45,811 nucleotides of DNA from a virus, in IMG/VR virus record IMGVR_UViG_3300035698_014120, positions 1-45,811 of that record; one strand, given 5' to 3'. Positions 4,097-45,625 of the stretch are shown here, piece by piece. Both the position numbers and the translations under genes were made by a program. Numbering within the stretch: position 1 is the first letter of the stretch; the number at the start of each line of letters is the position of its first letter. The notes beneath the pieces were generated by a model. It did not search any database, was not told the DNA's origin, and worked only from the letters and a program-made list of their open reading frames with translations.

Positions 4097-4103
4097 ACCT
4101 GAG

Positions 4104-4131
4104 ATATCAGTCCCCAGGTATGGTTTCGGGC
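4104..4131 (-). promoter_or_regulatory. Late-type element copy 1 (upstream of helicase)
   Basis: On the minus strand it reads GCCCGAAAC, seven variable bases, GGGGACTGATAT. It ends eight bases before the helicase start. CATACCTG...CAGGTATG also makes a dyad across it. It is one of six copies in the window, all in the same orientation. Confidence 0.7.
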
Positions 4132-4140
4132 TAATCCGCC

Positions 4141-4208
4141 GGTCGCTGTTCCGGCGGAAATCCGACCGTCGCTCTCTACGCTTGGTCGCTGTTCCGCCGG
4201 AAATTCGA
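4141..4208. repeat. Two 25-bp direct repeats with a TTCCGSCGGAA palindrome
   Basis: GGTCGCTGTTCCGGCGG at 4141 recurs at 4184 with two mismatches over 25 bp (4141-4165 and 4184-4208). Each copy contains the 11-bp palindrome TTCCG(G/C)CGGAA. A related 14-bp perfect palindrome lies beyond the other end of the relaxase gene at 6218-6231. These are possible protein-binding sites or boundaries of the mobilisation cassette; function unknown. Confidence 0.6.
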
Positions 4209-4225
4209 ACGCCCTGCGTAACTAT

Positions 4226-8961: not shown

Positions 8962-9630
8962 ATGGCGTGCGAAGAAGCAAACGCGGATCTCCGCAAATTT
9001 CTGAACGGAGATAAATTCGCGACCGTGATGGCTGATCCTCCTTGGCGATTCCAGAACAGGACTGGAAAGATCGCTCCCGAGCACAAGCGCCTTGCTCGGT
9101 ATCCGACGATGGAACTCGACGAGATTTGCTCGCTACCCGTAGCTGAGCATCTTGAAGACCGGGCGCACTGCTACCTCTGGGTGCCGAACGCCTTGCTTCC
9201 AGACGGTCTAAAGGTGCTCGAAGCCTGGGGCTTCTCATACAAGTCCAACATTGTCTGGGAAAAAATTCGCAAGGACGGTGGCCCCGACGGGCGTGGCGTC
9301 GGCTTCTACTTCCGGAATGTCACGGAGATCCTTCTGTTTGGTGTTCGCGGTAAGGATGTCCGGACACTTGGGCCTGGCCGTAGCCAAGTAAACTACATCG
9401 AAGCGTCCGAGCCTGACGGAGACGTTGTAAAGACGCGCAAGCGTGAGCACAGCCGCAAGCCAGATGAGCAATATCAGATCATCGAATCCTGCTCATGGGG
9501 TCCGCGTCTTGAGCTATTTGGTCGAGGCGTGCGCGACGGCTGGACAGTCTGGGGGAACCAGGCTGATGCCGACTACAAGCCCACTTGGAAAACATACGCG
9601 CACAACAGCGGCGTAACGGCGGCTGAGTGA
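8962..9630 (+). CDS. MT-A70 family DNA N6-adenine methyltransferase, 222 aa
   Basis: SAM-dependent adenine methyltransferase. The catalytic motif DPPW is at residues 25-28. The MT-A70 hallmarks LWVPNALLPDGLKVLEAWGF and the IVWEK strand follow, then NVTEILLFGVRG and the C-terminal ELFGRGVRDGWTVWGNQ. I chose ATG 8962 because GAGGAG sits eight bases upstream; an in-frame ATG at 8920 has no SD. The next gene, three bases away, is a BglII-like restriction enzyme, so this is probably the protecting methylase of a type II system. Confidence 0.9.
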   Translation: MACEEANADLRKFLNGDKFATVMADPPWRFQNRTGKIAPEHKRLARYPTMELDEICSLPVAEHLEDRAHCYLWVPNALLPDGLKVLEAWGFSYKSNIVWEKIRKDGGPDGRGVGFYFRNVTEILLFGVRGKDVRTLGPGRSQVNYIEASEPDGDVVKTRKREHSRKPDEQYQIIESCSWGPRLELFGRGVRDGWTVWGNQADADYKPTWKTYAHNSGVTAAE

Positions 9631-9633
9631 TTT

Positions 9634-10386
9634 ATGTCTGACGATGATGACGACCTCGCTGGCGAGGATGAAGATGATGGTAAGGTTTCGGCGGGTAAGA
9701 TTTCTGATCACGCTACGCTCGTAGACGCAAATTTTGCCGCTCCACTGCGGTCAAAGTTTGAGATCTATAGCTACCGAAATGCTGCCAACATTTTGGCACA
9801 GAGTTTTCCTGATCAGTATGCAGACATCACCTCGGCGCTTACGAAGATGGCCGTGACAAAAGAGATGATCCGGATGCCGGGCGGGAGCAAAGGTCCGATA
9901 GCCAAGCATATTGACACTCTATTCACGGACGACTGGATCGAAACCCGGATTTCTGCCGACCTCCACGTAAAACTTTTACATGCAAAGCGATCAAAGAACG
10001 ACACGATAGTCAGTCAATATACGCGTGAAGGCTATCTCGACGGTCACCGCATTGACTTCGTTCGAGGAAGAGTTGCTCTCGACGTGGAGTGGAACAGTAA
10101 AGACCAGACCTATGATCGTGATCTTTACGCCATGTCAGCATTCTATGATGCAGGCGCGATTGATGTAGGAGTGATCATCACTCGTGGATCTTCGCTCGAC
10201 GGCACATTCTTCCGGAGCCTGGGCAAGGTTCTTGATAAGGACGGCAACGAAGGCGCGTCTGAGGTCTACAAAAAATATGGAGCATCGACGACGTGGATGG
10301 GCAAGCTCTTGTATCGCTTGGATGCGGGACGGAACGGCGGCTGCCCCATACTCGCGATTGGGATTACGCCCAACGGCGTTGTCTGA
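9634..10386 (+). CDS. BglII/BstYI-like type II restriction endonuclease, 250 aa
   Basis: The region HRIDFVRGRVALDVEWNSKD (139-157) followed by RDL, FYDAGAIDVGVIITR (170-184) is typical of the BglII-type endonuclease family. D141, D150/E152 and N154/K156 are candidate active-site residues; that family uses atypical third residues. The N-terminus is an acidic tail of about 18 residues. The protein is full length. It follows the MT-A70 gene by three bases and ends before a strong terminator. Members cut GATC-centred sites; the specificity here cannot be read from sequence. It could serve in superinfection exclusion and plasmid retention. Confidence 0.85.
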   Translation: MSDDDDDLAGEDEDDGKVSAGKISDHATLVDANFAAPLRSKFEIYSYRNAANILAQSFPDQYADITSALTKMAVTKEMIRMPGGSKGPIAKHIDTLFTDDWIETRISADLHVKLLHAKRSKNDTIVSQYTREGYLDGHRIDFVRGRVALDVEWNSKDQTYDRDLYAMSAFYDAGAIDVGVIITRGSSLDGTFFRSLGKVLDKDGNEGASEVYKKYGASTTWMGKLLYRLDAGRNGGCPILAIGITPNGVV

Positions 10387-12685: not shown

Positions 12686-13354
12686 TTGCCTGTCATTTCA
12701 TTTGCAAGCAGTAAAGGTGGGGCTGGTAAGACCACCAGCTCTATCGTTCTGGCTACGACGTTCGCTGGCGGCCGCGGCGTGGTTCTCATCGATGCCGATC
12801 CTGCCGGTAGGGCCACATCTTGGTCTACGCGTTCACCTTTGCCGGAAAATCTCGAGGTAATACGGAGTCAGGGTGAGCGTCACATTCAAGATGAGATTGA
12901 AAAGGCACGCGACCGAGCGACCTTTGTCATCGTTGATCTTGAGGGTGCCGCAACACGCGTAAACGCCTACGCGATGGCTGAAAGCGATCTCGTCATCATT
13001 CCGATGGGAGATGAGCAGCAGGACGCTGACGCGGCCATTGAGACGCTTGCCCAGGTCAAGCAGGAGGGTAGGGCGCTAAGGCGCGAGATACCTGCTGCCG
13101 TCCTATTCTGCCGGACAAAGGCTGCGGTGAAGTCACGCCTGGCTAAAGAACTCAATCACGAGATGAGGGGTGCGGTTTTGGCGTTCAAAACCGAACTCAA
13201 CGACCGAACAGCCTTTTCTTCGCTTCACAGTCTCGGCGGTGGACTAGAAGGAATGAACCCCTCCGATGTAGGGGGACTGGAAAAAGCGATCAGCAACGCA
13301 AACGATTTTGCTTCTGAAGTTATCGATATTCTGGCGGAGATGAAAAATGGCTAA
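12686..13354 (+). CDS. parA: ParA-type partition ATPase, 222 aa
   Basis: A small type Ib ParA that drives segregation of the extrachromosomal genome. The deviant Walker A KGGAGKTT is at residues 10-17, DADPAGRATSW in the A' region and FVIVDLEGAATR in Walker B. There is no N-terminal HTH, as expected for the ParF-like class. The start codon is TTG at 12686, with CGGAG eight bases upstream. The stop overlaps the next start by eight bases. The CATCA array upstream and the RHH gene downstream complete the cassette. Confidence 0.93.
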   Translation: MPVISFASSKGGAGKTTSSIVLATTFAGGRGVVLIDADPAGRATSWSTRSPLPENLEVIRSQGERHIQDEIEKARDRATFVIVDLEGAATRVNAYAMAESDLVIIPMGDEQQDADAAIETLAQVKQEGRALRREIPAAVLFCRTKAAVKSRLAKELNHEMRGAVLAFKTELNDRTAFSSLHSLGGGLEGMNPSDVGGLEKAISNANDFASEVIDILAEMKNG

Positions 13355-13619
13355 ACTCGATTTCTCTAAACTCGATGAGCCGGTTGTAAGCAAAAAAACA
13401 TCTCAGCCAGCAGGGCAGGGGGCTCAACCGAAATCAAAACCTCCAGTCGAACGTTGGCCCAGCCGGGAGCCCATTCAAGAAGGTCAATTCACAGTTAGAG
13501 CAAAGCTCGAGACAATCGAACGGTTCAAGACCATGTGCCGCCCCGAGGGTGGTGGCCGTTTCACATATGGAGAGATGCTCGACAAGCTCATGGATATTGC
13601 TGATAGGGCGTCGAAGTGA
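13347..13619 (+). CDS. Ribbon-helix-helix-like partition partner of ParA, 90 aa
   Basis: A small basic protein in the ParB position of a type Ib system. The N-terminal 45 residues are disordered and Lys/Pro/Gln-rich. The C-terminal part QFTVRAKLETIERFKTMCRPEGGGRFTYGEMLDKLMDIAD fits an RHH fold (beta strand, two helices). ParG-like proteins of this build bind phased short repeats upstream of parA and stimulate the ATPase through their flexible tail. The family assignment rests on position, size and predicted fold, not on a recognised sequence match. Confidence 0.78.
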   Translation: MAKLDFSKLDEPVVSKKTSQPAGQGAQPKSKPPVERWPSREPIQEGQFTVRAKLETIERFKTMCRPEGGGRFTYGEMLDKLMDIADRASK

Positions 13620-13819
13620 CCAAGACATACAACAACAGCTACTGGATGAGCCTCACTCCTGATCAGGAGCTGGAATCAGCTAAGGCGCAATTTCAAAGCA
13701 TTGTTGGTCGGTCGAAGTCTTCATCTTTGCCTGCGGATTTGTCTTACGCTGCTTTCACAATATCCGGTCGTATCATGGAACTTGAAGAACAACTTGGTAT
13801 CACTCACGTCGATGATTGA
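13616..13819 (+). CDS. Small hypothetical protein in par operon, 67 aa
   Basis: Begins at GTG 13616, overlapping the stop of the RHH gene by four bases. It is soluble and mostly helical, with an acidic end. No family recognised. Tight coupling makes a third partition or copy-control component possible. It is the last gene before the iterons. Confidence 0.55.
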   Translation: MTKTYNNSYWMSLTPDQELESAKAQFQSIVGRSKSSSLPADLSYAAFTISGRIMELEEQLGITHVDD

Positions 13820-13899
13820 GCTTCAAGTCTTTCATTATTCAAGATTCTAAGATTCAGGGCCGATTTAGCCAATCTTGCCATAAGGATAGCCGATTTAAT

Positions 13900-14002
13900 G
13901 TGAGGAAACCGGGGTTTTCGGTGAGGTATTCGGGGAATAATGTGAGGAAACCGGGGAATAGTATGAGGTTTTCGGGGGCTTAATGTGAGGTTTTCGGGGC
14001 AA
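13900..14002 (+). repeat. Five iterons, consensus GTGAGGWWWYCGGGG
   Basis: TGAGG of the repeats starts at 13901, 13922, 13943, 13964 and 13986, a period of 21, 21, 21 and 22 bp. Two sequence types alternate: GAGGAAACCGGGG and GAGGTTTTCGGGG (one GAGGTATTCGGGG). The TTTTCGGG core also occurs in the six late elements. Confidence 0.9.
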
Positions 14003-14011
14003 GCGAGAAAC

Positions 14012-14020
14012 TTATCCACA
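14012..14020 (+). promoter_or_regulatory. DnaA box TTATCCACA
   Basis: Perfect match to the consensus DnaA box, 10 bp after the last iteron; it implies use of host DnaA at this origin. Confidence 0.85.
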
Positions 14021-14097
14021 GGTGTGATCGGCGGAAATGTGAAACCTTCTGCCAAACTCAATTCACATTTGCAACTTTTCGATGTAGCGTCCGACTC

Positions 14098-14985
14098 ATG
14101 GCAGATGATCTTCGCACCCTTGATCTTACTCCGTCGCACGATGAGGCGATAAAACCGTCTGAACTCATTCAGATCACGGGTCATCAGCAGCTTTCACTCA
14201 ACGCAAGAAGGGCTATTACGGTGCTTTGGCATACCGCGCATCGCCAAGGCATTGAGGAGGGCAGGGACTACGTTATCGAGCTTTCAGCCCTTCGTCCTGA
14301 CGGCCACAAGGGCTCGGAAATGATCGAGGAAGCGGTCGTCTCACTCATGCAGACGATCCTAACTGTGAAGCTTTCGGGGGGAAAAACCCGGCGTGTTCAG
14401 TTTCTTGGCGGAAACGACATGGACGATCCGGGTCGGCCGTCCGGTGTGATGACCTACAGCTTCGATAAGCGCCTCGTTGAAATTTTGCGGGATAGCTCAA
14501 TTTGGGGCCGGATCGCCCTTCCAGTTCTGATGGCGTTTTCGAGTAAATATGCCGTCAGCCTCTACGAAAATGCGAGCCAGTTCTCAAATCTGAGTCGGAA
14601 GATCCATCAAGACTATCTTCTCGATGACTTCCGTCAGATGCTTGGTGTGGAGGAGGGAAAATACCCCGCATTTGGGGCACTTAACAAGCATGTGCTCAAA
14701 CCTTGCATTGATGAGATCAACGCTCTTGCACCGTTCAATGTCTCTATTATCCCGACAAAAACTGGGAAAAAGGTAACCGGCATTAGGATGGGCTGGTGGC
14801 GTAAATCGGAAGACGAACTCAAAGAGGCATATGCCGAAGCCCAGCGTCCGAGAGTGGGGCGCAGAGCGCGCATTACAGGCCGAGTTGAGCATGTAGCGCC
14901 AATGGCTTCGATTGAGAGTATGAGCCGGAAAGCTCGTTTGGAGCAGCGACAGACTTCCCCGAATTCCTCACTTTTAGAAGACTGA
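14098..14985 (+). CDS. repA: Rep_3-family replication initiator, 295 aa
   Basis: Initiator protein that binds the iterons. Two winged-helix domains are visible: the first runs to about residue 130. The hallmark KYAVSLYENASQF (about 151) follows, with FRQMLGVEEGKYPAFGALNKHVLKPCIDEINALAPFN split across the second domain and KTGKKVTGIRMGWW closing it. Length matches the family. The C-terminal 50 residues are basic and disordered. The gene lies directly downstream of the iterons, so autoregulation is likely. It explains maintenance without an integrase. Confidence 0.95.
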   Translation: MADDLRTLDLTPSHDEAIKPSELIQITGHQQLSLNARRAITVLWHTAHRQGIEEGRDYVIELSALRPDGHKGSEMIEEAVVSLMQTILTVKLSGGKTRRVQFLGGNDMDDPGRPSGVMTYSFDKRLVEILRDSSIWGRIALPVLMAFSSKYAVSLYENASQFSNLSRKIHQDYLLDDFRQMLGVEEGKYPAFGALNKHVLKPCIDEINALAPFNVSIIPTKTGKKVTGIRMGWWRKSEDELKEAYAEAQRPRVGRRARITGRVEHVAPMASIESMSRKARLEQRQTSPNSSLLED

Positions 14986-17997: not shown

Positions 17998-18024
17998 TCG
18001 GAAACCTCTATCTACTTAATGTAG

Positions 18025-18052
18025 ATATCAGTCCCCAAATGCGTTTTCGGGC
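18025..18052 (-). promoter_or_regulatory. Late-type element copy 2 (upstream of lysis cassette)
   Basis: Minus strand: GCCCGAAAA, seven bases, GGGGACTGATAT, 27 bp before the amidase start. CCCGAAA and TTTGGGG are imperfect arms of a dyad. Confidence 0.75.
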
Positions 18053-27088: not shown

Positions 27089-27121
27089 TGGTAGCTCCCG
27101 GGGAATAATCTCTTACAAGAG

Positions 27122-27149
27122 ATATCAGTCCCCAAAAGCAGTTTCGGGC
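27122..27149 (-). promoter_or_regulatory. Late-type element copy 3 (upstream of tail tube)
   Basis: Minus strand: GCCCGAAAC, seven bases, GGGGACTGATAT, then CTCTTGTAAGA. It ends 33 bp before the tail tube start. Confidence 0.78.
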
Positions 27150-28080: not shown

Positions 28081-28662
28081 TCAGACCAACAGTTTCAGCA
28101 TAGCCAGGCCGTCCGGCAAAACGCGCGATACAGACTGTTGCTTGCCGGAAATACGAATAGCGGTGCCTGCCTTCACATCACCGACGTCAGCAACTCTCAC
28201 AGCGATCATTGCGCGGCTTACGATGATGCGAGTGCCATCCCGCCCAATCTCTTCGATTTCAACGGAAGGCATGACGTTAGCGGAGATTGTCAGCCAGTTG
28301 CCGTCAAGTTGCAGACCGATTTCCTGATCAAGTGGAATGTCGCCGGACGCGTCAAAAACAGCGATAGCCTCGCCTTCAATCCGTTCGAGCTTAATGTCAG
28401 ACAGACCAGGCACAGACGACGGCATTACAGCGTCAATGCGGTATGTCGCGCCCTCTGCGTTGATTGTGCCACCGCGGCGCAGTCGAGCGTCTGCAAGCAC
28501 GACGCCAGACGCGTCAGAGCCGATCAACTGATCGCGCCGGGATGTGCGAAATGCCTTGTCAGACTCCTGAACAAGAACGCGCAGATCAAACTCATGCGGC
28601 GTGCGGCGGTAGACGCCCGGCACGGTCGGCATTGCGTCGAAAAGGTCTTGTCCAAAATCCAA
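28081..28662 (-). CDS. Head-tail connector-region protein, 193 aa
   Basis: Not recognised by sequence. It is the first gene after the capsid gene and its terminator, where head completion or FII-like proteins lie. The start is TTG 28662 with TAGGAG about eight to nine bases upstream. Beta-rich. Confidence 0.6.
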   Translation of the reverse strand: MDFGQDLFDAMPTVPGVYRRTPHEFDLRVLVQESDKAFRTSRRDQLIGSDASGVVLADARLRRGGTINAEGATYRIDAVMPSSVPGLSDIKLERIEGEAIAVFDASGDIPLDQEIGLQLDGNWLTISANVMPSVEIEEIGRDGTRIIVSRAMIAVRVADVGDVKAGTAIRISGKQQSVSRVLPDGLAMLKLLV

Positions 28663-28679
28663 AGCGTGTGGCTCCTATG

Positions 28680-28709
28680 AAAAAGGCCCCGCCGTTTGCG
28701 GGCGGGGCC
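28680..28709 (-). terminator. Strong minus-strand terminator after the capsid gene
   Basis: GGCCCCGCC / GGCGGGGCC, a perfect 9-bp stem with a 7-base loop, followed on the minus strand by TTTTT. It would lower expression of head-tail genes relative to the capsid. Confidence 0.88.
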
Positions 28710-28747
28710 TGGTAGTAAGGGCTGGGGTGGCAGCCCTAACTTAGTTC

Positions 28748-30789: not shown

Positions 30790-30815
30790 CGGACTTCCCG
30801 TATTACTTACAAGAG

Positions 30816-30843
30816 ATATCAGTCCCCTCCGCGCGTTTCGGGC
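30816..30843 (-). promoter_or_regulatory. Late-type element copy 4 (upstream of protease/capsid)
   Basis: Minus strand: GCCCGAAAC, seven bases, GGGGACTGATAT, then CTCTTGTAAG. In this copy the flanks also form a hairpin CCCTCCGC/GCGGAGGG. Confidence 0.78.
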
Positions 30844-32753: not shown

Positions 32754-32780
32754 CGATACTCTCCTGTGATCTTACAAGAG

Positions 32781-32808
32781 ATATCAGTCCCCGAAGACTG
32801 TTTCGGGC
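32781..32808 (-). promoter_or_regulatory. Late-type element copy 5 (upstream of gpW/portal)
   Basis: Minus strand: GCCCGAAAC, seven bases, GGGGACTGATAT, then CTCTTGTAAGA. CCCGAA/TTCGGG forms a perfect 6-bp dyad here. Confidence 0.78.
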
Positions 32809-35597: not shown

Positions 35598-35602
35598 TCT
35601 AT

Positions 35603-35630
35603 ATATCTGTCCCTATTGAGGTTTTCGGGC
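35603..35630 (-). promoter_or_regulatory. Late-type element copy 6, diverged (upstream of packaging operon)
   Basis: Minus strand: GCCCGAAAA, exactly seven bases, AGGGACAGATAT. Two mismatches from the other copies. Its centre also reads as an iteron-like TTGAGGTTTTCGGG on the plus strand. Confidence 0.6.
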
Positions 35631-36423: not shown

Positions 36424-36447
36424 TGTCTCTCTCCCTGTCTTTCAAGG

Positions 36448-36476
36448 GAAATAGAGACGCCTAAGCCTGATCCAAA
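36448..36476 (-). promoter_or_regulatory. Early-type promoter, TTTGGA-17-TATTTC
   Basis: TTTGGA (36471-36476), 17 bp ending GCGTCTC, TATTTC (36448-36453), 25 bp before the GTG start at 36423. Confidence 0.62.
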
Positions 36477-36477
36477 A

Positions 36478-37694: not shown

Positions 37695-37717
37695 GTTCTT
37701 CTCCCTTTGTTTTAAGG

Positions 37718-37746
37718 GATATAGTCAGTATTTCACGCTCTCAAAA
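37718..37746 (-). promoter_or_regulatory. Early-type promoter, TTTTGA-17-TATATC
   Basis: TTTTGA (37741-37746), 17 bp ending ACTGAC, TATATC (37718-37723), 24 bp before ATG 37694. One of the best matches of the family. Confidence 0.68.
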
Positions 37747-38382: not shown

Positions 38383-38958
38383 CAAATGGCGTTGAAAGAC
38401 AGACAAAACTCACCTCATCAGATCAGCCTATGATTTTTCCCAATCGACAAGGAATTCCAAGCTTGGCCACCCCATTTCCGACTTATTTGCACGTTTTGCA
38501 GCAGCCGAAATCCCGAAAAGCCCGATTTGCGAGATTTTCGCGTCAATGAAAACAATGACTTACAGATTTTTTACACGTTCTGCACTTACGCGCATGGGGC
38601 TGACTGGATCTCATCGTTGAGGTTTTCAGAATATAGAAGGAGGGGGGACTACTTACTTACTTAACATCTCGCACGCGCAAGTGCAAAATGTGTAAAAAAG
38701 CCATAAGCCGCTGAAAAGGCTTGATTTTTCAGGACGCCAAAAACGCCACAAAGCTGCCAAAAGCAGATCTTTTCAAAACTTTTTTATTCAATACTTTCAG
38801 GTGTTTACAGGTTTTTTACACATTTTACACACTTAGTGCTGCACTTTTTGCAGTTTTTCATTTTTGGATCACCCCATCTCCTTCCTACCTCTGATTGGCA
38901 GGCACAACGATGCCTCGATGTCAAGACCAATAACACAAACGCCTGAGGTAGGTAGAAA
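38383..38958. other. 575-bp non-coding AT-rich region with TTTTTTACAC repeats
   Basis: No gene seen. Divergent region between the small-gene operon and the DUF3987 gene. Related sites lie at 38483-38500 (TTATTTGCACGTTTTGCA), 38567-38593, 38674-38699 (inverted) and 38812-38838. It also holds an iteron-like GTTGAGGTTTTCAG (38617) and a tract of ACTT repeats. It may be a second, lytic origin or a repressor-operator region. Confidence 0.6.
38567..38838. repeat. Three TTTTTTACACRTTYTRCAC sites (one inverted)
   Basis: Copy A 38567-38593 (+) and copy B 38674-38699 (-) match in 23 of 26 positions and face each other across 80 bp. Copy C 38812-38838 (+) keeps TTTTTTACAC and a diverged right half. A partial fourth copy is at 38483-38500. 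Confidence 0.7.
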
Positions 38959-40713
38959 ATGAACATGACGACAAACAAAGAATTCGACATTGACGCTGCT
39001 GCCGAGGCAGCCCTCGATGCCGTATTCGGACCGAGCTCGGAGCCAGTCTATGAGGCCGACATGGACGGCTATCCAGAAACTTCAGAGAAGCCAATCGTTG
39101 AGCCACTCGATCTTTTCGGCGACACATCGCTGACTGGCCGTCAGGAGCTGACGCCAGGGATGCTGCCGCCGGCGATCTACGATTACTCAAAAGACTGCGC
39201 AGAGATCATGGGCATCAATACCGGTGCCATTGCGCTCGGATGCCTCGTTGCTGCCGGCACCGCAATCCGCGAGAAATGGGTCATTCAGCCGAAGATCAAT
39301 GACTACAACTGGAAAGAGCGCGCGATCCTATGGGGTGGTGTCTCCGGAAACACTGGCGCAAAGAAGACGTCGGCGATCAACGCATCTACTGTGCCTCTCG
39401 ACATTCTCGAGAACAAATGGGACGCCGATGCCGAGGAACTCCGCCAGGATTTCTATCAAGAGAAAGCAGTCTATAACGAACTCATGAAAAACTGGCGCAA
39501 GGTGTGTCAGCAGATCCTGAAAGATGGCGGCAGTCGTATGGATCTTCCTCCTGCTCCCGAAAAGCCAGAGTTGCCGATCGTGCCGCGCCTCGTGATTAAA
39601 GATACCACGATTGAGAGCGTTATGGGTATCTGCGCGAATAACCCTGCCGGTGTCGTTCAGGTTCGCGATGAGCTTGCCGAATGGCTGGCATCCTTCGATT
39701 TGTATTCCGGCGGTTCCGGCTCCCGTGATCGTGCAAAGTATCTCAGCGCCTACAACGGCAGCTCTGAAAGCATCGACCGGAAGTCCGATGAGGCCGGCCC
39801 TCTCCGTGTTGAGACATTCGCGGTGTCAGTTCTCGGCGGCATTCAAGACGATCTGGTGCGCAAGAACTTCCAGAACACTGCGGCCGACGGCTTCATCGCA
39901 CGCTTCCTCTTCGTCCGGGCTGAGATCATGGATGGATGTGACCGCACACCGAACAAGAAGGCGATCGCGGCCTACATTTCACTAATCCACAAGCTGACCG
40001 AACTGGAAGTTCAGGAGGAGAATAATGAAAGCCCTATCGTCACTATGTCGCTGGGTGCTGCAAAGGTGCGTGAGCGCGTCGAGGCATTGTCACGGGCTCT
40101 AAACAACAACCCACTAATCACGAAGGGTCTCGGCGATCACCTTAACAAATGGCCGGGTATCTTCTCCCGCCTCTGCCTGATTTTTCACATGATTGAGTGC
40201 GCTCAGATGGGCATCCGTCCGACAGGAAAACATGAGAGCGGTGAGCCGGTGCAAGTAAAGGAAACGACCGCTGAGCGTGCCTACACACTGATGACAGAGT
40301 ATTTCCTGCCTGAGGCTGCCCGCATCTACAATGAGGTCATGCAGGGCGATGAGGCAACCGGGCACGCCAAGTGGATTGCAGGACACATCCTTTCCGGTGG
40401 CAAGGACTTCACTCGCATTACGGCATCAGAGATCGGTCGCGCATACCGCGCGTTGAAGAGCGACACTCGCGCTTTGGATGACGCGACCCGCAAGCTGGAG
40501 TTGATGGGCTGGATCACACCGGACGTGAAAAAAGATGGACGACCATATCACCGTTCCGACATGCCGAAAATGAAATGGCGCGTGAACCCGCAGGTTCATA
40601 AGTCATTTGCAGATCGCGCAGAGATCGAGCGTCAGAACCGCCAGGCGACGAAAGATCTGATCGCAAGCGGCGCCAAGGCCATGCAGGAACTCCAAACTAA
40701 GATTAAGCGCTGA
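38959..40713 (+). CDS. DUF3987-family replication protein, 584 aa
   Basis: Belongs to the DUF3987 primase/helicase-associated family. The degenerate P-loop GGVSGNTGAKKTSAI (about 126-140) is characteristic, as are RDELAEWLASFD...YLSAYNGSSESIDRKS and FAVSVLGGIQDDLVRKNF...DGFIARFLFVR. An acidic N-terminal tail (1-50) and a winged-helix-like C-terminus (ITASEIGRAYRAL...LMGWITPD) are present. Such proteins replace or help primase-helicases in phages and plasmids. The SD GAGGTAGG precedes ATG 38959. The repeat-rich AT region directly upstream supports a role at a replication origin. Confidence 0.87.
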   Translation: MNMTTNKEFDIDAAAEAALDAVFGPSSEPVYEADMDGYPETSEKPIVEPLDLFGDTSLTGRQELTPGMLPPAIYDYSKDCAEIMGINTGAIALGCLVAAGTAIREKWVIQPKINDYNWKERAILWGGVSGNTGAKKTSAINASTVPLDILENKWDADAEELRQDFYQEKAVYNELMKNWRKVCQQILKDGGSRMDLPPAPEKPELPIVPRLVIKDTTIESVMGICANNPAGVVQVRDELAEWLASFDLYSGGSGSRDRAKYLSAYNGSSESIDRKSDEAGPLRVETFAVSVLGGIQDDLVRKNFQNTAADGFIARFLFVRAEIMDGCDRTPNKKAIAAYISLIHKLTELEVQEENNESPIVTMSLGAAKVRERVEALSRALNNNPLITKGLGDHLNKWPGIFSRLCLIFHMIECAQMGIRPTGKHESGEPVQVKETTAERAYTLMTEYFLPEAARIYNEVMQGDEATGHAKWIAGHILSGGKDFTRITASEIGRAYRALKSDTRALDDATRKLELMGWITPDVKKDGRPYHRSDMPKMKWRVNPQVHKSFADRAEIERQNRQATKDLIASGAKAMQELQTKIKR

Positions 40714-43334: not shown

Positions 43335-43363
43335 TTTTTGGTTTAGCACCGCGGGACTATTTT
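43335..43363 (+). promoter_or_regulatory. Early-type promoter, TTTTTG-17-TATTTT
   Basis: TTTTTG (43335-43340; TTTTGG with 16 bp), spacer ending CGCGGGAC, TATTTT (43358-43363), 30 bp before ATG 43394. Confidence 0.6.
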
Positions 43364-43393
43364 CATTCCAGGCCGATAAAAATGGAGAATGAA

Positions 43394-43732: not shown

Positions 43733-43776
43733 AACGGAAATCACCGATCCATTTCCGAGAAGCACAATCGGGGCCT

Positions 43777-43797
43777 ATCTCCTAAAAAATAGGAGGT
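43777..43797 (+). promoter_or_regulatory. SD-sequestering hairpin before the sigma factor gene
   Basis: ATCTCCTA (43777-43784) and TAGGAGGT (43790-43797) pair over eight positions (one G-U) around AAAAA; the right arm is the SD AGGAGG. Closely similar to the hairpin before the relaxase gene. Caveat: a -10-like TATCTC overlaps the left arm, so a transcript starting nearby might lack it. Confidence 0.6.
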
Positions 43798-43804
43798 TGG
43801 CTTG

Positions 43805-44596
43805 ATGGCTCATCAAAATCTAAAACAGTTTCAAAACGCCTGGGCCGTCGCCTGGAAAATCAATCGAGACGAAAACGCACGCGATCTATTGATCGATTCA
43901 TGCATGGGGCTTGTCCGCAAGCAGGCTCAAAATATGAAATGGTCAGGCGCTGCATTCAAAGAACTTGAATCGGAAGGCGTCGCTGCAATCCTCGACGCGA
44001 TCGACACATTCGATCCTACGCGTGGGCATTTTGCAGCGCACGCTTACTACAAAATCAAAGATGCTTTGCTTGTGTCTGCGCAGACGACGCGCAATCCGTT
44101 CAAAATGCCGATCAGCCGGCCGGAGAAGCAAATCCAATACAAACTGATGCCGCTCATCGCTCAATATGAGACGGCTGGGATGCCCTCCGGTCTTGCATTT
44201 GATACAGCGTGCGATGACTTGAGAATTCCGCGTGAGAGAGCTGCTGTGGCGCTGTCAATCCGCAACGCTATCAGCCTTGACGTCATGGCGACGGAAGACG
44301 GTGAGTTCCAAGAACAGATCTCGGCAGGCGGGCCATCGTCCGAGGATACTATCGAAGGCGATCGCGTCAGCAATCTATTAGCGGCCGCATATGTCGGTCT
44401 TGATGATCGTGAGCGTTCACTGATTGAGCTACGCATCACCGCCGACGTTCCGATGTCTCTTGATGCTCTCGGCGCTATGCACGGAATATCACGCGAGCGG
44501 GTTTGTCAGATTTTGCGGAAGGCAATGAAGCATTTGCGCTTTGAGTTAGAAAAACAAGGATTGGAATTGTCGGATCTTTTAAGCGCTCCTGATTAA
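43805..44596 (+). CDS. RNA polymerase sigma factor, sigma-70 family (RpoH-like group 3), 263 aa
   Basis: Region 2 (about 28-100): LVRKQAQNM, ESEGVAAILDAIDTFDPTRGHFAAHAYYKIKDALL, the core-binding and -10-recognising helices in split form. Region 3-like middle (about 105-160). Region 4 (about 190-248): LDDRERSLIELRITADVPMS and the HTH LGAMHGISRERVCQILRKAMKHL that reads the -35. It has no region 1.1. ATG 43805 follows AGGAGG by eight bases, but the SD sits in a hairpin. A phage-encoded sigma factor could direct host polymerase to the six late elements. Confidence 0.9.
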   Translation: MAHQNLKQFQNAWAVAWKINRDENARDLLIDSCMGLVRKQAQNMKWSGAAFKELESEGVAAILDAIDTFDPTRGHFAAHAYYKIKDALLVSAQTTRNPFKMPISRPEKQIQYKLMPLIAQYETAGMPSGLAFDTACDDLRIPRERAAVALSIRNAISLDVMATEDGEFQEQISAGGPSSEDTIEGDRVSNLLAAAYVGLDDRERSLIELRITADVPMSLDALGAMHGISRERVCQILRKAMKHLRFELEKQGLELSDLLSAPD

Positions 44597-44618: not shown

Positions 44619-44648
44619 TTTGGGTCGGATATTTGCCGGGACTATTTC
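44619..44648 (+). promoter_or_regulatory. Early-type promoter, TTTGGG-18-TATTTC
   Basis: TTTGGG (44619-44624), spacer ending GCCGGGAC, TATTTC (44643-44648), 29 bp before ATG 44678. Confidence 0.58.
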
Positions 44649-44677: not shown

Positions 44678-45625
44678 ATGGCATCCTTCACTAAGTTTCC
44701 GAGTATTGATAGCTTTGCACACGTTTATCGTCGGCAGGCTAAATCTTTTGATCCAGCTCGCGTTGTTTATGGCGCTAAAATCAAATTGCACGGCACAAAC
44801 GCTGGTATTCGTGTATCGACAAGCGGAGAGGTTGTTGCACAATCTCGCAACCGCGATCTGTCTGTCGATAGCGACAACTTCGACTTTGCCGCGTGGCTCG
44901 AAGGCGTGAAGCCATTGTTCGCCGCATGCACACAGATCGAAGACGCTGTGTTCTTCGGCGAATGGGCTGGGCCGGGAGTTCAACCCACTGATGCTGTCAG
45001 TAAGACAGACAGACGACGCTTCTATGTGTTCGCCATCCAGATCGGCGAAATGATGCACTACGACCCGGAGTTTATCCGGCTTCTTACGCCTGCGCACCCT
45101 GACATCGAGATCCTGCCGCTCGAGTTCGAGATTTCCGTCGACTTCGGTGGCGGCACCGGTGAGATCATCGATCGCGTTAATGACGCGGTAGATGCCATCT
45201 CCACCGAAGACCCCTACATCGCCCGCATGTTCGGTGTCAGCGACGCCGGCGAAGGGCTTGTTCTCGCTCCAATCGCTCCGACCGGAATTCTCAACTGGCC
45301 AGAAGTGACATTCAAAGCAAAGTCCGAAGCCCACCGCGTTAAGAAAGCTGGCAAGGCCGTCTCCGAAAAGCTCGGCATTCCGACTGGCGCACGCGAGTTT
45401 GTCGAAGCCTTCGTTACTGATGCCCGGTGCCAGCAAGGTCTGACTGAGGCTTGCGGCGGCGTCGCTGATCCTCAGCGTATTCCTGACTTCTTGAAGTGGA
45501 TGGGCGGCGACGTAAAGAAGGAGTCGGAGGCTGAACTCATTGAGATGGGCTTGGAATGGAAGGCTGTCGCGAAGTTCGTCAATGGTGCGTCCGTGCGTTG
45601 GTTTAAGTGTCAGGCTCATGTCTGA
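44678..45625 (+). CDS. RNA ligase, Rnl2-like nucleotidyltransferase, 315 aa
   Basis: Member of the covalent nucleotidyltransferase superfamily. Motif I K36-L-H-G-T-N (AMP-accepting lysine), motif III FFGEWAG, motif IV GEGLVLAP and motif V VTFKAKSE are in order. A C-terminal helical part (about 220-315) follows. Phage Rnl2/Rnl1-type ligases reseal RNA nicked by host anticodon nucleases, a counter-defence. Substrate here is inferred. SD AAAGAGAGAAC. A long antisense frame over this gene is rejected. Confidence 0.9.
   Translation: MASFTKFPSIDSFAHVYRRQAKSFDPARVVYGAKIKLHGTNAGIRVSTSGEVVAQSRNRDLSVDSDNFDFAAWLEGVKPLFAACTQIEDAVFFGEWAGPGVQPTDAVSKTDRRRFYVFAIQIGEMMHYDPEFIRLLTPAHPDIEILPLEFEISVDFGGGTGEIIDRVNDAVDAISTEDPYIARMFGVSDAGEGLVLAPIAPTGILNWPEVTFKAKSEAHRVKKAGKAVSEKLGIPTGAREFVEAFVTDARCQQGLTEACGGVADPQRIPDFLKWMGGDVKKESEAELIEMGLEWKAVAKFVNGASVRWFKCQAHV

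Follow-up and report, generated by a model that had tools for sequence, protein, structure and literature searches.

A phage-encoded sigma factor and a phage-confined late promoter class in small temperate alphaproteobacterial phages

The sigma factor gene and its genome

Gene g59 occupies positions 43805-44596 on the plus strand of the window, that is, the complete IMG/VR virus record of 45811 bases analyzed here, and encodes a sigma-70-family protein of 263 amino acids with regions 2 and 4 and a region 3-like segment. The open reading frame is uninterrupted, with its ATG at 43805, an in-frame TTG at 43802, and a Shine-Dalgarno sequence (AGGAGGT, 43791-43797) ahead of the ATG. Both Pfam domains score above their gathering cut-offs (Sigma70_r2, 25.5 bits versus 24; Sigma70_r4, 45.2 bits versus 24.1), which bears out the sequence-only reading of an intact sigma factor with regions 2 and 4. 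The protein matches PHROG 351 ('RNA polymerase sigma factor') at 1.6e-28, and an AlphaFold model, moderately confident with a mean pLDDT of 69, has sigma factors as its structure matches, one of them E. coli sigma32 in RNA polymerase (8hkc). The region 3 segment aligns with full-length sigmas, and g59 thus does not have the ECF layout of regions 2 and 4 only. A putative promoter, TTCCGA-N17-TATCTC (43753-43782, plus strand), precedes the gene, and the next gene, g60 (44678-45625, plus strand), encodes an RNA ligase (Pfam RNA_ligase, PHROG 548). A search of viral contigs with g59 alone gave no match, the A1 alignment found only a Roseovarius prophage, and searches of the literature turned up no publication about these phages or their sigma factor.

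The first and last 127 bases of the window are identical, and this terminal repeat indicates a circular genome of about 45.7 kb. The plus strand carries mainly replication and early-type genes, among them those for a Rep3 initiator, a ParA/VirC1-like protein, a DUF3987 helicase, and the RNA ligase, and the minus strand carries the genes for terminase, portal, head protease, capsid, tail, and endolysin. A direct repeat of 21-22 nt (TAATGTGAGGAAACCGGGG) is present in four to five copies at 13890-13999, immediately before the Rep3 initiator gene at 14098, and these copies are likely iterons of the plasmid origin. The initiator, the ParA/VirC1-like protein, the iteron-like repeats, and the circular genome together uphold the earlier description of the virus as a phage-plasmid. 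While the Rep3 and ParA/VirC1-like genes lie at 12686-14985 of the window, two relatives, the Roseovarius prophage and the phage G679, encode phage integrases (L005:565-2028 and L049:13457-14872), and no integrase was recognized among the window proteins scanned. One set of virion genes seems to accompany both integrating and plasmid lifestyles.

Several further features of the genome are worth recording. An MT-A70 methyltransferase gene adjoins a BglII-type endonuclease gene at 8962-10386, and this methyltransferase is 85% identical to one of the distant phage G680. A strong GC hairpin with a T-run (28662-28746) separates the capsid gene from g38; its position is kept in all four phages that are compared below, and it is probably a terminator that lowers expression past the capsid gene. 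Two 28-nt direct repeats with the palindromic core TTCCGSCGGAA (4141-4211) lie between the helicase gene g6 and the relaxase-like g7 and may form a transfer origin or an operator. Four related 26-nt repeats (TTACAG.TTTTTTACACGTT.TGCA; 38476-38841) are located in and beside the intergenic DNA ahead of the DUF3987 gene at 38959 and may be operators for a repressor.

Relationship of g59 to RpoH

It had been suggested from the sequence that g59 may resemble RpoH, and in general terms this is the case: size and regions correspond to those of RpoH (sigma-32, including the alphaproteobacterial RpoH1 and RpoH2), 8hkc is among the best structural matches, and the best NCBIfam match is the sigma-32 model PRK07500. 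However, the score of 69.7 bits in this model is far below the cut-off of 315, as is the TIGR02392 score of 58.7 bits against a cut-off of 323.1, and at the position of the RpoH box the sequence is degenerate, with EKQIQYKLM in g59 and EKQMRFHLS in r32, the sigma factor of the Roseovarius prophage, versus QRKLFFNLR of RpoH. In a tree, which is read here without the row G357_A (wrong frame), g59 and r32 form a clade with a support of 96/98 that does not join RpoH and is not firmly placed among RpoH and other alternative sigmas. Given the degenerate box and the missed cut-offs, the name RpoH should not be used for g59. An annotated RpoH homologue is known from Salicola phage SCTP-2, whose gene 39 product (RNAP sigma-32 factor-like protein) is 26% identical to g59 over 87% of g59, but this phage has a 440-kb genome.

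The boxes of the late element described below differ from host sigma-70 boxes and also from the published RpoH promoters CTTGAA-N15-16-CCTATAT and CTTGCC-N15-16-CCTATCT (PMC4843759). The -10 box of the early promoter class, in turn, resembles published RpoH2 promoters (TATCT, PMC4843759), and one may speculate that a stress input, if any, might enter through the early promoters. The idea of a stress-triggered switch, which accompanied the RpoH comparison in the sequence-only reading, found no support in our analysis.

Two promoter classes

CCCGAAA-N15-GATATC is present in five exact copies in the window and in none of 100 dinucleotide shuffles, which substantiates the earlier proposal of a distinct element class before late genes. 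All late elements are intergenic and precede minus-strand genes, each ahead of a late or replication operon. Three exact copies on the minus strand, before the portal operon g42-g41 (32780-32808), before g40-g39 for head protease and major capsid protein (30815-30843), and before the major tail protein gene g35 (27121-27149), have counterparts at the same place in three relatives. The copy before the endolysin gene g27 (18024-18052, minus strand) recurs at this position in two relatives, and in the third an element stands ahead of a non-homologous lysis-type gene; the copy before the helicase operon g6-g5 (4103-4131, minus strand) is also seen before the orthologue in G679. Upstream of g44, the gene for the terminase small subunit, there is a weaker element of this type (35602-35630, minus strand) with two mismatches to the four-phage consensus, and it has counterparts in the relatives.

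The three relatives with the element are alphaproteobacterial phages or prophages. The Roseovarius halotolerans prophage (41,491 bp), the sole relative obtained by a terminase search, carries its elements, with the form CGAAC...GGACCGATATTCC, ahead of its orthologues of g42, g40, g35, and g27. In the 44.3-kb contig G009, GACCGGAA...GACCGATATTC precedes the orthologues of g42, g40, and g35, and an element lies 33 nt upstream of s46, the lysis-enzyme-like gene after the sigma gene of the tail operon, which is not homologous to g27. G679 (36.9 kb), identical to IMGVR_UViG_2884667308_000001 wherever the two were compared, has elements before its orthologues of g42, g40, g35, g27, and g6. Two other genomes, G357 and L038, do not contain the element, but they share only structural similarity and are too distant to inform on this point.

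A gapless alignment of the 16 strong sites from the four phages gives the consensus GMMCGR-N17-GATATY, in which GAC(C/T) directly precedes the -10 box and +1 and +2 are A. Invariant in all 16 sites are C-32 and G-31, G-16, A-15, and C-14, and GATAT from G-12 onward; G-35 is found in 15, A+1 in 14, and A+2 in 15 of them, with R at -30 and Y at -7. GATATY can be read as the -10 box because the A at +1 falls where a sigma-70-family promoter would start. The late element thus has the normal layout of a sigma-70-family promoter with non-standard boxes. Two different -35 offsets, which had been considered for the Roseovarius-type sites, are ruled out by the alignment, as it gives a single frame with GNNCG at -35 to -31. 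The late genes of these four phages therefore have a promoter class of their own that is distinct from early and host promoters, as is characteristic of late sigma systems.

This promoter class is confined to phages. In 390 genomes of the host families, the consensus has seven matches, six of which lie in two of the present phages, and the element is otherwise nearly absent; the reversed consensus, used as a control, also has seven matches, which are scattered with one per genome. Among 2.9 million viral contigs, a stricter consensus matched only the Roseovarius and G679 phages. The exact window-type element matched no other viral contig, and matches of G009-type patterns in other contigs were discarded, as they lacked relevant homology and were unlike promoters. 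The restriction to phages argues against the view that the sigma factor redirects host genes, for example in stress or lysogeny, and plays no part at phage promoters. Known sporulation-like phage sigmas do target host networks, and the phage can do without them (PMC9429907), but those are close to host sigmas, whereas the identity of g59 to the host sigmas in the comparison is only 20-27%, and we consider such a role very unlikely.

The early class, TTTTG-N17-19-TATNTC, has three matches in the window versus 0.22 expected. In the window alone it is weaker than the late class, but in the relatives, too, early genes are preceded by it, and the sequence-only reading of two promoter classes thus stands. 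Early-class promoters are seen before g46 (TTTTGG-N18-TATTTC, 36447-36477, minus strand), g50 (TTTTGA-N17-TATATC, 37717-37746, minus strand), g58 (TTTTGG-N16-TATTTTC, 43336-43364, plus strand), and g60 (TTTGGG-N18-TATTTC, 44619-44648, plus strand). The putative g59 promoter may be a variant of this class with a partly late-like -35 box, and the sigma gene of G009 is preceded by TTTTGG-N18-TATGTCC, whereas no clear early-class promoter was found before the sigma genes of the Roseovarius prophage and G679. The promoters before g59 and the G009 sigma gene would fit a cascade from early transcription via the sigma factor to late transcription.

Sigma factors of the group and the proposed late switch

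All four phages with the late element encode a sigma factor: g59 in the window, r32 in the Roseovarius prophage (37% identical to g59), u13 in G679 (27% identical; its gene slot is that of r32), and s45 in G009, a short, unrelated type with an ECF-like look, which is the sigma of a phage that has no g59-type sigma. The more distant relative G680 has portal, terminase, and helicase in common with the group and contains four early-class promoters with a TTTTGA start and a 17-18 nt spacer, but in the 40 kb examined it has neither a late element nor, by a sensitive profile search, a sigma. It follows that the early class can be read without a phage sigma and that the late class travels with the sigma. 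A sigma factor of a Leisingera plasmid was dismissed as a further phage case, as its neighbors are metabolic genes and not phage genes. The co-conservation of sigma and element, which had been named as a check of the link between them, is thus found in four of four phages, although this co-occurrence rests on few events, as the four phages are mutually related.

The same comparison bears on whether the phage sigma might read the early class (TTTTGR...TATWTC) in an auto-amplifying manner instead of the late class, a possibility that had been set against the late-switch proposal from the beginning. The early-class variant before g59 itself would suit auto-amplification. However, the 40 kb of G680 that were examined contain the early class without any sigma, and early genes need to be read before any phage protein exists, so that we regard this alternative as highly improbable. 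A single common sigma for both classes had been considered on the basis of GGGAC, which is present at some early and late sites of the window, but most early sites of the relatives are without GGGAC, and the sigma-less early sites of G680 also speak against it.

From the comparison of sequences, we conclude that g59 is probably an early-made phage sigma factor that switches on the late genes via the phage-specific late promoter on host core RNA polymerase, with a probability of roughly 70%. This conclusion is well supported but unproven, and the original claim that the sigma reads the late class has been strengthened by the co-occurrence in four phages and the lack of both partners in the 40 kb of G680 examined. 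The sequences establish the sigma gene, the element with its canonical layout and conserved targets, and the occurrence of the element together with phage sigmas; binding of g59 to the host core, recognition of this element by g59, and the early-to-late order are inferred. The main weakness is that one of the four sigmas is of the unrelated short type and that recognition residues vary while the element barely does.

The phage sigmas differ from one another at the positions that in sigma-70 recognize the -12 base and the -35 box, and that would thus be expected to recognize the -10 and -35 boxes here. The sigma factors r32 and u13 are only about 27% identical, and the neighboring proteins are 76% and 63% identical; this sharp divergence of the sigma slot (L006:9334-10116 and L048:8148-8951) beside conserved flanks suggests gene exchange or fast evolution of the sigma. 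Region 3.0 of sigma-70 contains a segment that reads bases just upstream of the -10 box, and here the three full-length phage sigmas g59, r32, and u13 have the motif P-x-S-R-x-x-K in common. This would fit a reading of the bases before the -10 box but is suggestive only, as s45 does not have the motif. It is conceivable, albeit doubtful, that the late promoter is held nearly constant while its sigma is exchanged or re-evolved, being RpoH-like in three phages and of the unrelated short ECF-like type in the fourth.

Variable recognition residues facing a constant element could also mean that the host primary sigma reads the late elements with the help of a phage activator that binds the GMMCGR box, with some other task for the phage sigma, and GATATT indeed retains four of the six bases of TATAAT. 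On the other hand, the fixed 17-nt spacer and the A at +1 suit a complete promoter, and the invariant GAC is not explained by a -10 box that is read by the host. The non-structural genes common to the phages besides the sigma are nuclease-, helicase-, relaxase-, ATPase-, and SSB-like; no other transcription-factor-like protein was seen among those common to all four, and there is thus no shared activator candidate. An activator-dependent host promoter is hence unlikely.

In the late-switch model that we favor, g59 would be expressed early, its promoter belonging to the early class that the host can read, and would take the place of the host sigma on the host core RNA polymerase. The resulting holoenzyme would recognize GMMCGR-N17-GATATY with the invariant GAC(C/T) and a start at A, and the operons for terminase, portal and head, tail, endolysin, and the g6 helicase would be switched on in one step.

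Dedicated late sigmas are classically known from the large lytic phages SPO1 and T4. T4 gp55 is likewise a phage sigma for late transcription, but a T4 late promoter has no box other than the -10 box and requires the sliding clamp and gp33, whereas the late promoters of the present phages have a clear -35 box. SPO1 gp34, which works with the co-factor gp33, is a phage-encoded sigma over late genes whose promoter, CGTTAGA-N17-19-GATATT (PMC3601020), has the same GATATT -10 box as three of the four present phages. SPO1 differs in being a lytic Bacillus phage with another -35 box and, in the cited consensus, no GAC before the -10 box (PMC3601020). Both SPO1 gp34 and T4 gp55 are essential, the latter for late transcription (PMC9429907).

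In summary, the present case would work like that of SPO1 or T4, but in small temperate alphaproteobacterial phages, one of which lives as a plasmid, and the sigma is accompanied by a complete predicted late regulon. The varied sigmas and the near-constant promoter provide a natural data set on the evolution of sigma specificity, and if the sigma has indeed been exchanged or re-evolved, the late element would stay fixed as the target while different types of sigma adapt to it.
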